31,473 nucleotides of DNA, taken from IMG/VR virus record IMGVR_UViG_3300031227_000251, positions 1 to 31,473 of that record; one strand, 5' to 3'. Source of the DNA: a virus. How positions within the stretch are numbered: position 1 is the stretch's first letter; every line of letters begins with the position of its first letter. A program made the translations under genes and the position numbers. Shown in pieces: positions 2,770 through 19,067 of this stretch. Below the pieces are notes generated by a model, which saw nothing but the letters and a program-made list of their open reading frames with translations, did not search any database and had not been told where the DNA came from.

Positions 2770-3437
2770 TTAAACTAAAAACACTTTTAGAGAAATTAGG
2801 AGCAATACAATCTGAATTGAAAGCTCCAAAGAATCAACACAATGGATTTGGAAACTATAACTACAGGAGTTGCGAAGACATACTAGAGGCGGTGAAGCCA
2901 CTAATACAAAAACATGGATGTACCTTATTTATTACCGATAGAATTGTTCGTAAAGGAGATAGATATTATGTAGAAGCCAATGCTTCACTTCAAGAGGATG
3001 GCAACATTATCGATACCTATGGTTATGCTAGAGAAGCTGTTAGTAAAAAAGGAATGGATGAGAGTCAAATCACAGGTGCTGCATCTAGCTATGCTAGAAA
3101 GTATGCCCTTAATGGTTTATTCCTTATAGACGATACAAAGGATGCTGACACCAAGGACAACACAGACAGTGTTCCAGCAACTGCCACAAACTACAAGACC
3201 ACTAAATCAGGATCAGGATCAGTAGGTGATCCAATAGAAACTGGTGTATGTTCTGAATGCAGGGCAGAGGTCAGCAAAAAAGTTATGGACTTTAGTCTCA
3301 AGAAACATGGAAAGGTTATTTGTTATGACTGTCAGGAGAAACTCAAGGACATGGAAAAGACAGTTAAGCCAACAAAGGAAGTTGATGTCGAAGAACTTCC
3401 TGAGCAAGATGGAGAGGGAGAAGCGATCCCATGGTAA
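2751..3437 (+). CDS. erf: ERF-family single-strand annealing protein with zinc-finger tail
   Basis: Pairs complementary single strands during phage recombination and genome circularisation. The N-terminal ~130 residues show the ERF pattern: a helix (LLEKLGAIQSEL), the conserved FGNYNYRSCEDILEAVKP block, β-strands (GCTLFITD, YYVEANASL), and the signature block SQITGAASSYARKYALNGLF. After an Asp/Thr/Ser-rich linker there is a four-Cys finger (Cys167, Cys170, Cys191, Cys194). The tail is acidic and ends GEGEAIPW, which resembles the acidic C-terminal tip of bacterial SSB (DDDIPF type). It overlaps its neighbours on both sides (19 and 7 bases), forming a coupled operon. The family call is strong; the tip function is inference. 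Confidence 0.85.
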   Translation: MPDKKVIKLKTLLEKLGAIQSELKAPKNQHNGFGNYNYRSCEDILEAVKPLIQKHGCTLFITDRIVRKGDRYYVEANASLQEDGNIIDTYGYAREAVSKKGMDESQITGAASSYARKYALNGLFLIDDTKDADTKDNTDSVPATATNYKTTKSGSGSVGDPIETGVCSECRAEVSKKVMDFSLKKHGKVICYDCQEKLKDMEKTVKPTKEVDVEELPEQDGEGEAIPW

Positions 3438-3811
3438 ATATGGAAAAGATAATATCGCTGCCATCTCTTATATGGGACAAAGGAATTACCGGTGACGGAG
3501 GTCGCAGGATGTGGGTTACCACCAATGAATTGAATGATGAACAGAGTGCGTCAGTCATGAAAGTAGGAGACAACAAAACGTTCGGCTGGTTCTTATTCAA
3601 GAAGTCTGAGATAGAAATGCAAGACACACTCGATCTTCCTGAGATAAAGATGGAATTTAAGGATGACAAGAGTCCAGCAAAGAGACTGAGATCAACTATA
3701 TTTGTCTATTGGAAAAAGAAGTTTGACGAAGGATTAATGAAATGTGACTTCGATACCTATTACAAAAAAACGGTGGAACACTTCATTGATAAAGTTAAGG
3801 AGATGATCTAA
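3431..3811 (+). CDS. Hypothetical protein coupled to the ERF gene
   Basis: A 126-residue soluble protein of mixed charge. It starts at ATG 3431, inside the last codons of the ERF gene, with a second ATG at 3440 just after the ERF stop that could be used instead. Visible features are a Gly-rich turn (KGITGDGGRRMWV), an aromatic strand (KTFGWFLFKKSEI), and a helical Lys-rich C-terminal half (TIFVYWKKKFDEGLMK, HFIDKVKEMI). No family recognised. Tight coupling to the annealing protein suggests a function in the same recombination or replication step. Confidence 0.65.
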   Translation: MVNMEKIISLPSLIWDKGITGDGGRRMWVTTNELNDEQSASVMKVGDNKTFGWFLFKKSEIEMQDTLDLPEIKMEFKDDKSPAKRLRSTIFVYWKKKFDEGLMKCDFDTYYKKTVEHFIDKVKEMI

Positions 3812-7885: not shown

Positions 7886-7896
7886 TTTATTACTTA

Positions 7897-8109
7897 GTGG
7901 GGTGGCGGAATAGTAGACGCATGATTAGGGTGCCGAGCAACGGAACCATTTACTTGGATAACAGAATTGCTTACGGACAGGTTGATTGCCTTAGTCCAGC
8001 CCCATGCAAGGTGACTATACGAGTAACAAAAAACAGGGCGAGAATCGACCCGCAATTCGATTTACCCAGTTTTGAAGCTAACTGGTACTCGTCAAATCCT
8101 TGCCCCCAC
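7897..8109 (+). ncRNA. tRNA-Leu-like RNA element 1, with insertions
   Basis: The 5' end GTGGGG (7897-7902) pairs with CCCCAC (8104-8109). It is followed by TGGCGGAATAGTAGACGC, which matches the D-arm of bacterial tRNA-Leu almost exactly. A T-arm-like stem GCAAGG (8006-8011)/CCTTGC (8098-8103) abuts the acceptor strand, but its loop reads TG...CAAAT split by a 79-base insert (8014-8092) that is itself closed by ACGAGTA/TACTCGT and holds hairpins AATCGA/TCGATT and CCAGTT/AACTGG. Between D-arm and T-stem, 85 bases replace the usual ~33; they contain hairpin GGT-CCG-AGCAA-CGG-ACC, whose loop can pair with TTGCT (7967-7971), and GGAC/GTCC. No clear anticodon arm. A decayed or unusual tRNA, or a tRNA-mimicking RNA. 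Confidence 0.5.
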
Positions 8110-8132
8110 CAAATAGTAAATTAAACACAATT

Positions 8133-8306
8133 ATGACTAAACAAGACGAAATAATTAAAAAATGTGGAGAACCAGCTGAGTTTTGCTTTGATTACATAAA
8201 CGGAGCTTCTCTTGCAAGCGATATAAGACGAATGAGAAAGTGGGTTAAGTGTTCTTACGATGTAGCTACAAAGTTTAACAAGAAAGTTAATAGTAAATTA
8301 ACTTAG
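8133..8306 (+). CDS. Small protein, unknown
   Basis: A 57-residue soluble protein with two Cys (KKCGEPAEFCF), then a helical basic stretch (SDIRRMRKWVKCSYDVATKF). The frame is open further upstream, but that part lies in the tRNA-like element and lacks a good start; ATG 8133 follows the shortened intergenic repeat (TAGTAAATTAA, 8114-8124), matching the local pattern. The stop TAG is inside the next repeat copy. No family recognised. Confidence 0.55.
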   Translation: MTKQDEIIKKCGEPAEFCFDYINGASLASDIRRMRKWVKCSYDVATKFNKKVNSKLT

Positions 8307-8309
8307 TAA
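8291..8309 (+). repeat. Intergenic repeat TAGTAAATTAACTTAGTAA, copy d
   Basis: Identical to copy a. It overlaps the last codons of the gene ending at 8306, whose stop is the second TAG of the element, and the next ATG follows one base after the element. Confidence 0.7.
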
Positions 8310-8310
8310 T

Positions 8311-8553
8311 ATGAAAAAGAAAATATACCTATTAGACCATAAGCTCAAATGGAAGGTATTTAAAACCTTACATGATAAAACTGTTAAAGACTCTGGTCCA
8401 ACACCAGCACAAATGGATAAGACTCTTTGGGAAATGTTGAGAGATAAACAAATCTATTGCTGGTATGACGATGAACACCCAAACGACATGGGAGTAGGGC
8501 TGAAACTTCCGAAGAACAGAGACATAGAAATGATTACCAATCCTACTAAATAG
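8311..8553 (+). CDS. Small protein, unknown
   Basis: An 80-residue protein with a basic start (KKKIYLLDHKLKWKVF), a helical middle (TPAQMDKTLWEMLRDKQI) and an acidic aromatic turn (YCWYDDEHPNDMG). It lies between two copies of the intergenic repeat, one base after the first and with its stop TAG forming the start of the second. No family recognised. Being just upstream of the terminase, it may belong to the late or packaging block. Confidence 0.55.
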   Translation: MKKKIYLLDHKLKWKVFKTLHDKTVKDSGPTPAQMDKTLWEMLRDKQIYCWYDDEHPNDMGVGLKLPKNRDIEMITNPTK

Positions 8554-8569
8554 TAAATTAACTTAGTAA
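8551..8569 (+). repeat. Intergenic repeat TAGTAAATTAACTTAGTAA, copy e
   Basis: Identical to copy a. The TAG at 8551-8553 is the stop of the preceding gene; the terminase small subunit starts 7 bases after the element (TACAATT then ATG). Confidence 0.7.
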
Positions 8570-8576
8570 TACAATT

Positions 8577-9002
8577 ATGACTAAACACGCAGGAGGAAGA
8601 CCCTCGGAATACAAGAAAGAATACATCACTAAAGTTGATGAATACTTAGAGTCCAGACAAGATGAAGTATTTGAATTTCATAAGACTAGAGGAGTAAAGT
8701 CTGATGGATATGATAGAAAGGTAAATGTTAAGTTACCAACGATAGAAGGATTCGCTATATTTATTAATGTTTCAAAGAAAACTTTATATAATTGGAGAGA
8801 TGAAAACCCAAAGTTTTTACACGCGTTAGAGAAGATTGAAGTAGAACAGAAGAGAAGATTGCTAGATAGTGGGCTTTCTGGAGACTATAATTCAACTATT
8901 GCTAAATTGATATTAAGCTCTAATCATGGAATGACAGAAAAGACTGATATAACTACAGGAGGAGAGCCAATGGGAGTTGTTATGCTACCGACAAAGAAAT
9001 GA
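8577..9002 (+). CDS. terS: Terminase small subunit (DNA-recognition)
   Basis: Recognises the packaging start site on phage DNA and hands it to the large subunit. The 141-residue protein starts with the typical AGGRPSEYKKEY block, then has a helix-turn-helix (LPTIEGFAIFINVSKKTLYN, about residues 54-73) followed by WRDENPKFLHALEKIE. The oligomerisation helices include RRLLDSGLSGDYNSTIAKLI, and the end carries HGMTEKTDI, a block common in this family. The order TerS, small genes, TerL, portal supports the call. The stop TGA overlaps the start of a tiny membrane peptide (ATGA). Confidence 0.85.
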   Translation: MTKHAGGRPSEYKKEYITKVDEYLESRQDEVFEFHKTRGVKSDGYDRKVNVKLPTIEGFAIFINVSKKTLYNWRDENPKFLHALEKIEVEQKRRLLDSGLSGDYNSTIAKLILSSNHGMTEKTDITTGGEPMGVVMLPTKK

Positions 9003-9185: not shown

Positions 9186-9336
9186 GTGCGAGGTGGCGGA
9201 ATAGGTAGACGCAGATAGTTGTGGATAGAATAGGCTTCCTGTCGGGCGAAGCTCGGAGGATGATGAATGGTTCAAACCCTTGTCTGCGACCCACAACTAA
9301 ATCCTCTATGCAGGGTGCAAATCCCTGCCCTCGCAC
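9186..9336 (+). ncRNA. tRNA-Leu-like RNA element 2, with pseudoknotted insert
   Basis: GTGCGAGG (9186-9193) pairs with CCTCGCAC (9329-9336). The next 19 bases, TGGCGGAATAGGTAGACGC, are a near-perfect tRNA-Leu D-arm. A T-arm GCAGGG (9310-9315), loop TGCAAAT, CCCTGC (9323-9328) directly abuts the acceptor strand. The 97 bases between, where an anticodon arm and variable arm of about 33 bases should be, hold two helices: CGCAGAT (9210-9216)/GTCTGCG (9282-9288), and TAGTTGTGG (9216-9224)/CCACAACTA (9291-9299). They interleave (A-B-A'-B'), so they form a pseudoknot or two alternative folds; the first competes with the D-stem. A second T-loop-like motif GGTTCAAACC is at 9269-9278. No encoded CCA. 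No ordinary anticodon loop seen. Confidence 0.55.
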
Positions 9337-9727: not shown

Positions 9728-9872
9728 GAAATTAGATCTCATATTAACATTTATAGGGAACATCTCGTTGTTTACGATTATTTCGTATGCAGTATTTGTT
9801 CTGGGCTATTCAGGGTTTTGGTTCTTATTTATAATGTGTTTTCATTTTACAGAAAGTAAAAATGGCAAGTAA
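9717..9872 (+). CDS. Small membrane protein upstream of terL
   Basis: A 51-residue protein overlapping the gene before it by 11 bases and terL by 11 bases, so it is translationally coupled on both sides. After a basic start (NYKKLD), nearly the whole chain is hydrophobic (LILTFIGNISLFTIISYAVF and GYSGFWFLFIMCFHF), giving two membrane helices. Such a protein embedded in the packaging cluster is unusual. A holin or membrane-modifying role is possible but not shown. Confidence 0.5.
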   Translation: MNYKKLDLILTFIGNISLFTIISYAVFVLGYSGFWFLFIMCFHFTESKNGK

Positions 9873-11235
9873 TGATTGGATACCACACGCTAAACAGAAG
9901 ACAGCTCTAGAACGATCAGAGTTTGAAATACTATTCGGCGGTGCTAGGGGAGGAGGAAAGACTGATGCCGGTCAAGCTTGGTTACTATATGACAAGGACA
10001 ATCCTTTATACAAAGCATTGGTTATTAGAAGAAATGCTGATGATCTCTCTGATTGGATAGCAAGGGCAAGAGTTATGTATACTAGATGCGGAGGTATAGT
10101 ATCAGGAAACCCACCAATCATTAAGTTCCCATCTGGAGCATTTATTAAAACAGGTCACTTAAAAGATGAGAATGCTTATGAAAAGTATCAGGGACACGAG
10201 TACCAGAAGATGCTTATAGAAGAATTGACTCAGATTCCAAGAGAAATACATTACTTAAAACTAATCTCATCGTGTAGAAGTACAGTTGAAGAGATAAGGC
10301 CACAAGTATTCGCAACTACCAATCCTGGTAATGCTGGTCATAAATGGGTTAGGAGTCGCTTTGTAGATGTCGGACCACCAGAAACAACGTTCTTAGATCC
10401 GATCACAGGGCGTAGTAGAATCTTCATTCCTGCTAAAGTAGACGATAACCCTAGCTTAATGGAGAAAGACCCTGACTATGTTCACTTCTTAGATGGGCTA
10501 CCTGATGGCTTACGCGAAGCTTGGAGAGATGGAAGTTGGGATGATATTGAAGTTGAGGGTGCTTATTATGTTAAACAATTGACTCAAGTTAGGAGTGAGA
10601 ATAGGATATCTACTGGATTATATGATCCTGCTCTTAAGGTTAATACCGCTTGGGATCTTGGTATCGGTGATGCTACATCTATTTGGTTCTTCCAACAGCA
10701 TGGCTTTGAGGTTAGGCTTATTGAATACTATGAGACACAAGGAGAAGGATTACCTTTTTATGCTAAATTACTACAAGATAAACCTTACATTTATGGGTAT
10801 CATCTAGCACCTCATGATATAGAGGTCAGAGAGCTTGGCTCAGGGCTTACAAGGCTAGAGGTTGCTCGCAAGCTAGGCATTCCTTTTACAGTCGTTCCCA
10901 AGCTACCAATTGAAGAGGGAATTGACACAGTTAGGAGAATGTTTAATAAGTGTTATTTCGATAAGGATAAATGCGAGGATGGGATTAATGCTTTGTCTCA
11001 ATATCGCAAGGAGTTCGATGAGAAGAAGAATGAGTTCAAGAACAAGCCACTACATGATTGGTCAAGTCATGCAGCTGATGCATTTAGATATCTTGCTCTA
11101 GGCAGAAAAGAGAAGCACACTCGTTCATTTGACCACATTAAAGACCCTGAGATTGAAGAGATGGAAGCAATTAGGAGATACAACGATTCAAGCAACGATC
11201 CCATTAGATCTATTGATCCATTTCCACCATTATAA
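9862..11235 (+). CDS. terL: Terminase large subunit
   Basis: ATP-driven motor and nuclease that pumps DNA into the procapsid and cuts it. The N-terminal ATPase shows Walker A GGARGGGKT (residues 26-34), Walker B MLIEE (117-121) and the coupling motif ATTNPG (151-156). The C-terminal RNase H-like nuclease shows its acidic residues in TAWDLGIGD (Asp265), APHDIE (Asp319) and HDWSSHAADAFRY (398-410). At 457 residues it is full length. It overlaps a membrane-protein gene at its start; the leader AGAAAG before ATG is a fair ribosome-binding site. The portal gene follows after 20 bases. Confidence 0.97.
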   Translation: MASNDWIPHAKQKTALERSEFEILFGGARGGGKTDAGQAWLLYDKDNPLYKALVIRRNADDLSDWIARARVMYTRCGGIVSGNPPIIKFPSGAFIKTGHLKDENAYEKYQGHEYQKMLIEELTQIPREIHYLKLISSCRSTVEEIRPQVFATTNPGNAGHKWVRSRFVDVGPPETTFLDPITGRSRIFIPAKVDDNPSLMEKDPDYVHFLDGLPDGLREAWRDGSWDDIEVEGAYYVKQLTQVRSENRISTGLYDPALKVNTAWDLGIGDATSIWFFQQHGFEVRLIEYYETQGEGLPFYAKLLQDKPYIYGYHLAPHDIEVRELGSGLTRLEVARKLGIPFTVVPKLPIEEGIDTVRRMFNKCYFDKDKCEDGINALSQYRKEFDEKKNEFKNKPLHDWSSHAADAFRYLALGRKEKHTRSFDHIKDPEIEEMEAIRRYNDSSNDPIRSIDPFPPL

Positions 11236-18910: not shown

Positions 18911-19054
18911 ATGAGTAAGAAAAGAAAAGACAGTGTGATAGAAAAAGCACCTGTCAAGGAATTAGATATTAAACAAGAAGTAGTTATTATTGATGGCGAA
19001 GATAAGTTAAAAACTACTTATTCCGATGGCACTGTAGAATATCAAATTCTGTAA
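18911..19054 (+). CDS. Small charged protein, unknown
   Basis: A 47-residue protein, ATG 18911 to TAA 19054. Very basic start (SKKRKDSVIEKAPVK) then acidic/strand-like end (QEVVIIDGEDKLKTTYSDG). The frame has a natural protein composition and sits between two virion genes. No family recognised. Confidence 0.5.
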   Translation: MSKKRKDSVIEKAPVKELDIKQEVVIIDGEDKLKTTYSDGTVEYQIL

Positions 19055-19067
19055 AATAGGCTTGGAA

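Follow-up and report, generated by a model that had tools for sequence, protein, structure and literature searches.

A family of predicted tRNA-like RNAs carried by phages, with a hypervariable segment in place of the anticodon arm

Several known RNAs imitate parts of transfer RNA (tRNA). Transfer-messenger RNA (tmRNA) and the tRNA-like structures of plant viruses combine a tRNA-like end with pseudoknots, Y RNAs reportedly mimic tRNA (Chen et al. 2014, as cited in PMC12282133), and the tRNA cluster of phage T4 includes the unexplained stable RNAs rnaC and rnaD (species 1 and 2). In Listeria phages of the P100 type, strong unannotated transcripts near the tRNA genes have been suggested to be Y RNAs (PMC12282133). 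Here, we analyze a 31.5-kilobase (kb) window, the whole of IMG/VR virus record IMGVR_UViG_3300031227_000251, in which an original prediction had described a tRNA-Leu-like element (element 1) whose T-arm is split by an insert. It is nearly certain that element 1 belongs to a large phage-borne RNA family, and this family is apparently undescribed so far; keyword searches of the open-licence literature returned no description of it, and its D-arm sequence is printed in none of that literature. Among the known kinds of RNA, tRNA mimics come closest to how the family would work, and its architecture is new.

The D-arm, the paired ends, the abutting stem, the split T-loop and the 79-base insert of element 1 all lie where the original prediction had placed them, as do the motifs AGCAA and TTGCT. 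Removal of 8014-8092, an insert closed by ACGAGTA/TACTCGT, restores TG-CAAAT, the loop of a second element in the window (element 2) and of the family. The D-arm pattern has a single match in the window and none in 100 shuffles. ARAGORN calls no tRNA, and of the checks that had been proposed, Rfam 15 gave no match on element 1, even at E≤10, while RNAfold added something that had been missed, namely that the acceptor helix runs outward through mismatches, pairing 7886-7895 with 8111-8120. This extension is less certain, because its 3′ partner overlaps a repeated gene leader (AATAGTAAATTAACTTAGTAATA, at 8105-8124, 8289-8311 and 8542-8571), which stands ahead of several small genes and is perhaps a phage promoter or translation signal.

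The plan of element 1 is common to element 2 and more than 150 other loci. It comprises a near-invariant D-arm (TGGCGGAATAGGTAGACGC), the T-loop TGCAAAT, acceptor and T-stems that covary freely, and a hypervariable middle between the D- and T-arms; we call elements with an intact T-loop class A and those with an insert, of which element 1 is the type, class B. An exact scan of viral contigs for the D-arm returned at least 119 loci, about a dozen of them ordinary tRNA-Leu and nearly all the others not tRNA according to ARAGORN, and a narrower pattern returned 52 class-A loci, 12 of which were among the loci already collected. The T-loop reads TGCAAAT in 100 of 105 class-A elements, 104 of which have G at position 55, and the trinucleotide YAT directly precedes the T-stem in 142 of 161 elements of both classes. 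The distance from D- to T-arm ranges from 7 to 191 nucleotides (nt), and the middles have almost nothing in common, with only 28 alike pairs among 191. ARAGORN calls overlap a single one of 159 elements. Element 2, folded alone and unconstrained, adopts as its minimum-free-energy structure in RNAfold exactly a 7-base-pair (bp) acceptor, a 3-bp D-stem and a 6-bp T-stem. One class-A and one class-B element also occur together in another phage (L126).

Covariation bears out a predicted frame that resembles tRNA, with an acceptor-type helix, a D-arm and a T-arm arranged in the tRNA order. In a set chosen blind to pairing, 27 of 28 class-B elements have every pair of the 7-bp acceptor formed (mean 1.4 and maximum 6 when partners are shuffled), as do 74 of 100 class-A elements (partner-shuffle mean 6.6); this set is the cleaner test, because elements of the class-B alignment were picked partly by their pairing. 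That alignment, of 41 relatives, has 99.6% of its cells paired compared to 80.3% after shuffling and 36 to 46% in slid controls, with 173 double-sided compensatory cells compared to 45.7. The class-A alignment behaves alike (99.0% of cells paired, shuffled 77.4%; 113 double changes, shuffled 30.0), and the D-stem also covaries, from C-G to U-A. Conservation and covariation of the stems in homologs had been named in advance as the test of the idea, and the result is in favor of the stems. A coding role was rejected, since homolog frames are closed and lengths are not multiples of three; the 75-codon frame that runs through element 1 is not conserved, with 5 open frames in all across 56 class-B elements read in three frames each. 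The proposal of a tRNA-mimicking RNA thus gains from a widespread family with covarying stems, a conserved elbow and no coding, and that of a tRNA broken by insertions is not supported, as the same non-tRNA plan is found again at well over a hundred phage loci, where compensatory changes keep the acceptor and T-stems intact.

In place of the anticodon arm, these RNAs are predicted to carry a hypervariable segment that often appears to form an H-type pseudoknot, its last strand ending 2 to 3 nt before the T-stem. When the best such pseudoknot was taken for each middle, exactly 2 nt separated the end of the 3′ arm of stem 2 from the T-stem in 45 cases, a number that no other position approached. 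For the 5 nt whose end lies 2 or 3 nt short of the T-stem, an exact complement occurs upstream in 52 and 51 of 141 middles, respectively, against a background of about 11 of 141 at other positions and in shuffles. Among four related middles, both of the interleaved stems have changed in compensatory fashion, and between phi3T and SBSphiJ7 a pairing likewise shifts from ATGGT/ACCAT to ATGGA/TCCAT. The pseudoknot is not evident in every middle, and its topology is supported in relatives; in element 1, AGCAA/TTGCT is a candidate pairing read from the sequence. The position of the anticodon region is a recurring site of pseudoknots and not a product of random decay. In the middles of L010, L098, L111, L114 and L214, and at 9271-9280 of the window, there is an extra T-arm-like hairpin (e.g., GCGGTTCAAATCCGC); these hairpins look as if they were captured pieces of other tRNAs.

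Class B, with about 50 to 70 loci, is predicted to add a second variable domain in the T-loop and a long outer stem. We know of no T-loop insertion in bacterial tRNA-like RNAs. Exact copies of a 16-nt stretch of element 1 (GGTGACTATACGAGTA), which spans its T-stem and the beginning of the insert, are present at 84 viral loci, most of which are T-arms of one plan (T-stem, TG, insert, CAAAT, T-stem). The insert always lies between T-loop positions 55 and 56, starts with ACTATACGAGTA, ends in CTCG(T/G), is variable inside and measures 23 to 113 nt (median, 62); its excision would restore TGCAAAT in every class-B element. The CGAG/CTCG stem of the insert is invariant and so carries no covariation information. 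The outer stem extends past 7 bp, with extension pair +8 being Watson-Crick in 61% of cases compared to 27% after shuffling, whereas the class-A acceptor helix ends at 7 to 8 bp, as in tRNA. Because class B differs from class A outside the insert as well, it seems to form a stable structural class. With element 1 as the query, no class-B relatives were found in INPHARED and PLSDB.

Compared to tRNA-Leu (RF00005), the D-arm is preserved nearly letter for letter, a 7-bp acceptor, D-arm and T-arm follow one another in cloverleaf order, and the T-loop is closed by G-C and retains U54 and A58. Unlike tRNA-Leu, however, the family has a 6-bp T-stem (a 7+6 helix) and G rather than U at position 55, so that U55/C56 is replaced by G55 in class A and the class-B loop is split at 55/56; where a 5-bp anticodon arm with a 7-nt loop would stand, there is the long and often pseudoknotted middle; and scores against the Rfam tRNA model stay below the gathering cut-off (14.8 versus 29 bits for element 2, none for element 1). 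With no anticodon arm, G55, an arbitrary discriminator base and no CCA, the family is not tRNA, and an ordinary or decayed tRNA was rejected on the negative ARAGORN and Rfam results and the covarying stems. tmRNA and plant-virus tRNA-like structures differ in another way: here the pseudoknot sits between D- and T-arm, there is no tag open reading frame and no alanine identity, and the carriers are DNA phages. tmRNA itself was rejected, given no conserved open frame, arbitrary acceptor pairs (no fixed G3-U70) and no tmRNA found by Rfam or ARAGORN. The 3′ end of T4 rnaC has a T-arm (GGGTTCGAATCCC), but T4 has no D-arm match at up to 3 mismatches and no match to our model R1. Phage P100 has no D-arm match either, so the expression evidence of PMC12282133 does not transfer to the family. 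A homolog of rliG (RF02415), a Listeria prophage small RNA, lies immediately upstream of the element of vB_LmoS_188 (L259 1249-1396), between a sigma-like gene and the late genes of Listeria phages; the element is an RNA separate from rliG, because A118 carries the rliG part without it.

The family is carried by phages and prophages and is rare in bacterial genomes, with elements in 4 of 199 Bacillota and 2 of 198 Bacteroidota genomes, where each sample included the genome it centered on. Class-A elements, or partial matches to them, occur in phages of Bacillus, Listeria, Enterococcus, Lactobacillus-group, Paenibacillus, Brochothrix and other hosts, among them phi3T and SPP1 (between genes 9 and 11), and inside the tRNA clusters of Herelleviridae. 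The SPP1 element occupies 3423-3531 of X89721 (L258 1421-1529), and that of phi3T 50192-50326 of KY030782 (L223 2500-2634). The records under the non-tRNA-Leu matches give no annotation or "hypothetical protein"; a 55-codon open reading frame passes through the SPP1 element and may be gp10 of the re-annotated genome (PMC6316719). Directly 3′ of the SPP1 element (L258 1538-1585) is a smaller, D-less tRNA-like hairpin, ACGGAC...GCGGGTTCAATTCCCGG...GTCCGT, and a similar one follows the L002 element. In Nitunavirus and Grisebachstrassevirus, the element is embedded in roughly 1 kb of conserved DNA that is mostly without annotation (L264 245-1153, L224 2560-3680); this region contains several further conserved hairpin-rich stretches and may hold more RNAs.

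The predicted RNA is phage-carried, non-coding and intergenic, and its elements mostly run in the direction of the neighboring genes. Of the elements, 29 have a tRNA no more than 1.5 kb away, and each of these 29 shares its strand with one or more such tRNAs (mean 16.7 and maximum 23 when placement is random). Recognized terminase small subunit genes on the same strand within 3 kb are downstream of 23 elements and upstream of 1. In the window, too, the terminase genes follow 3′ of element 1 (small subunit, 8577-9002; large subunit, 9862-11235), their nearest matches being to groundwater and Pelagibacter phages at low coverage. There is no excess of promoters upstream of the elements, and terminator-like sites follow 10 of 93 class-A and 2 of 52 class-B elements. 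No dedicated partner protein recurs near the elements, except for a terminase small-subunit and an integrase-like cluster. Elsewhere in the window (18968-19057, minus strand), a sub-threshold match to SpF01, a Streptococcus small RNA (37.6 bits; cut-off, 55), is probably due to chance.

Comparison of related phages indicates that middles are exchanged as cassettes. At one Nitunavirus locus with near-identical flanks, SPG24 and BSP10 have an SPP1-type middle and SBSphiJ7 a phi3T-type middle, and middles are swapped likewise between the Listeria phages vB_LmoS_188 and FHC193-PLM9. The element is absent from the Listeria phages A118 and vB_LmoS_293. Unrelated phages of one host have middles in common (SPP1/SPG24, phi3T/BSP14, VEsP-1/EFDG1), to the point that the smaller Enterococcus phage VEsP-1 (39 kb) and EFDG1, a member of the Herelleviridae, have an identical 150-nt stretch of middle; phiFL2A has lost it.

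Table 1. Positions of the two elements and their parts in the window
Feature	Positions	Strand	Basis or remark
Element 1, class-B tRNA-like RNA core, acceptor to acceptor	7896-8110	+	sequence; covariation in relatives
Acceptor-like helix, 5′ strand	7896-7902	+	six pairs; A7896-C8110 mismatched; covariation in relatives
Acceptor-like helix, 3′ strand	8104-8110	+	covariation in relatives
Paired ends GTGGGG/CCCCAC	7897-7902/8104-8109	+	read from sequence
tRNA-Leu-type D-arm TGGCGGAATAGTAGACGC, i.e., TG GCG GAATAGTAGA CGC	7903-7920	+	
Hypervariable middle replacing anticodon arm	7921-8005	+	3′ end is the conserved YAT
Hairpin CCG-AGCAA-CGG in the middle	7933-7943	+	loop can pair with TTGCT
AGCAA/TTGCT, candidate loop pairing	7936-7940/7967-7971	+	
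T-stem 5′ strand GCAAGG	8006-8011	+	covariation in relatives
First half of T-loop, TG	8012-8013	+	
T-loop insert, 79 nt, between TG and CAAAT	8014-8092	+	conserved ends ACTATACGAGTA...CTCGT
Second half of T-loop, CAAAT	8093-8097	+	
T-stem 3′ strand CCTTGC	8098-8103	+	covariation in relatives
Outward acceptor extension, 5′ strand UUUAUUA.UU	7886-7895	+	RNAfold; long terminal stems typical of class B
Outward acceptor extension, 3′ strand AA.UAGUAAA	8111-8120	+	RNAfold; overlaps repeats D2/D4
Element 2, class-A tRNA-like RNA with intact T-loop TGCAAAT	9187-9335	+	model R1, 58.6 bits, E 5e-14
Element 2, hypervariable middle	9213-9309	+	candidate H-type pseudoknot
Element 2, candidate pseudoknot stem 1	9216-9224/9291-9299	+	sequence; also in RNAfold
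Element 2, candidate pseudoknot stem 2	9256-9261/9301-9306	+	sequence; topology supported in relatives

We tentatively favor the reading that element 1 is the non-coding RNA gene of a phage-borne tRNA-mimic family, whose elbow would dock on the host tRNA machinery and whose pseudoknot would be an exchangeable effector. For the function of this RNA, we infer the following course. Host tRNA-processing enzymes would cut it out of longer phage transcripts, a step that would be needed given the lack of an own promoter and the few terminator-like sites. The near-invariant elbow of D-loop and T-loop would then offer a docking surface to a common host tRNA-binding factor; that no protein family travels with the element suggests a host partner. 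The pseudoknot, and in class B also the T-loop domain, could act as an exchangeable effector or decoy selected by the host, most likely occupying or diverting a host RNA-binding activity during infection, with a tRNA-directed defense or toxin enzyme, or another tRNA-handling enzyme, as the candidate target. One may go further and speculate, although we consider it doubtful, that the family is a universal phage tRNA-mimic platform, in which the conserved elbow grips the host tRNA machinery and a swappable pseudoknot (plus the T-loop domain in class B), passed between unrelated phages, serves as an effector specific to the host; it might, for example, be an RNA decoy that counters tRNA-directed or RNA-gated defense. 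Several observations speak against a tRNA mimic acting in this manner. The family encodes no CCA and has a mixed discriminator base, so tRNA-like processing of its 3′ end is not assured, and the long outer stem that class B carries does not resemble the end of a tRNA. No homolog of the middle of element 1 was found that could bear on its putative pseudoknot. Recombination alone, with no selection behind it, could account for middles being common to phages of one host, and the location upstream of terminase genes would also fit a cis role in the late transcript.

Such a cis role in late messenger RNA (mRNA) processing is the main rival: the element would be an RNase P/RNase Z-type signal or a block to 5′ exonucleases that separates or protects late mRNA segments, its middle being unused and free to vary. 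Elbow and acceptor are what RNase P generally reads, and an intergenic, mostly co-directional element that lies upstream of terminase genes, or between genes 9 and 11 in SPP1, and has no promoter of its own fits this explanation. We nevertheless consider it rather unlikely, because the middle is structured, with a conserved position of stem 2 and compensatory changes, because a free spacer would not need whole middles to be common to unrelated phages of one host, and because in large phages the element sits within tRNA clusters without a single downstream gene. A different suggestion, part of the original prediction, is that the class-B insert is a new small intron, the middle being a separate matter. 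The fixed site, the conserved ends and the class-A loop that removal always yields stand, yet the insert is hypervariable inside, the element contains a second hypervariable segment that cannot be the same kind of intron, and the insert matches no known splice-site logic. Group I and II introns were rejected with no Rfam intron on the window and inserts of such short length, and an archaeal T-loop tRNA intron because the step from the T-stem to the CGAG/CTCG stem gives, from sequence, no 3-4-3 bulge-helix-bulge; an intron is therefore improbable. Terminase genes, at most of the loci where they were recognized, lie downstream on the same strand, which might instead point to a packaging or other virion-assembly RNA working like the phi29 pRNA, but the element is not adjacent to terminase genes in Herelleviridae, phi3T and SPP1 and is optional in Listeria phages of the same kind, which makes this very improbable. 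We give least credence to a bacterial or phage Y RNA partnering Ro60: YrlA (RF02553), which has been reported from bacteria and phages, shares with the family a tRNA-mimicking domain and, with class B, a long terminal stem, but the hypervariable pseudoknot of the middle is unlike YrlA, RF02553 does not match the elements, and none of 22 phage records has a TROVE/Ro60 gene, a search that covered the phage side only and detected the gene in a control genome.

Taken as a tRNA mimic, the family would add to the known tRNA mimics one whose anticodon arm is replaced by a pseudoknot. Well over a hundred phage loci, those of SPP1 and phi3T among them, hold this structured RNA gene, which has apparently been overlooked or annotated as a hypothetical protein. 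Its function is directly testable in SPP1, phi3T and the Listeria and Enterococcus phages, which are tractable and provide natural allele swaps and absences.
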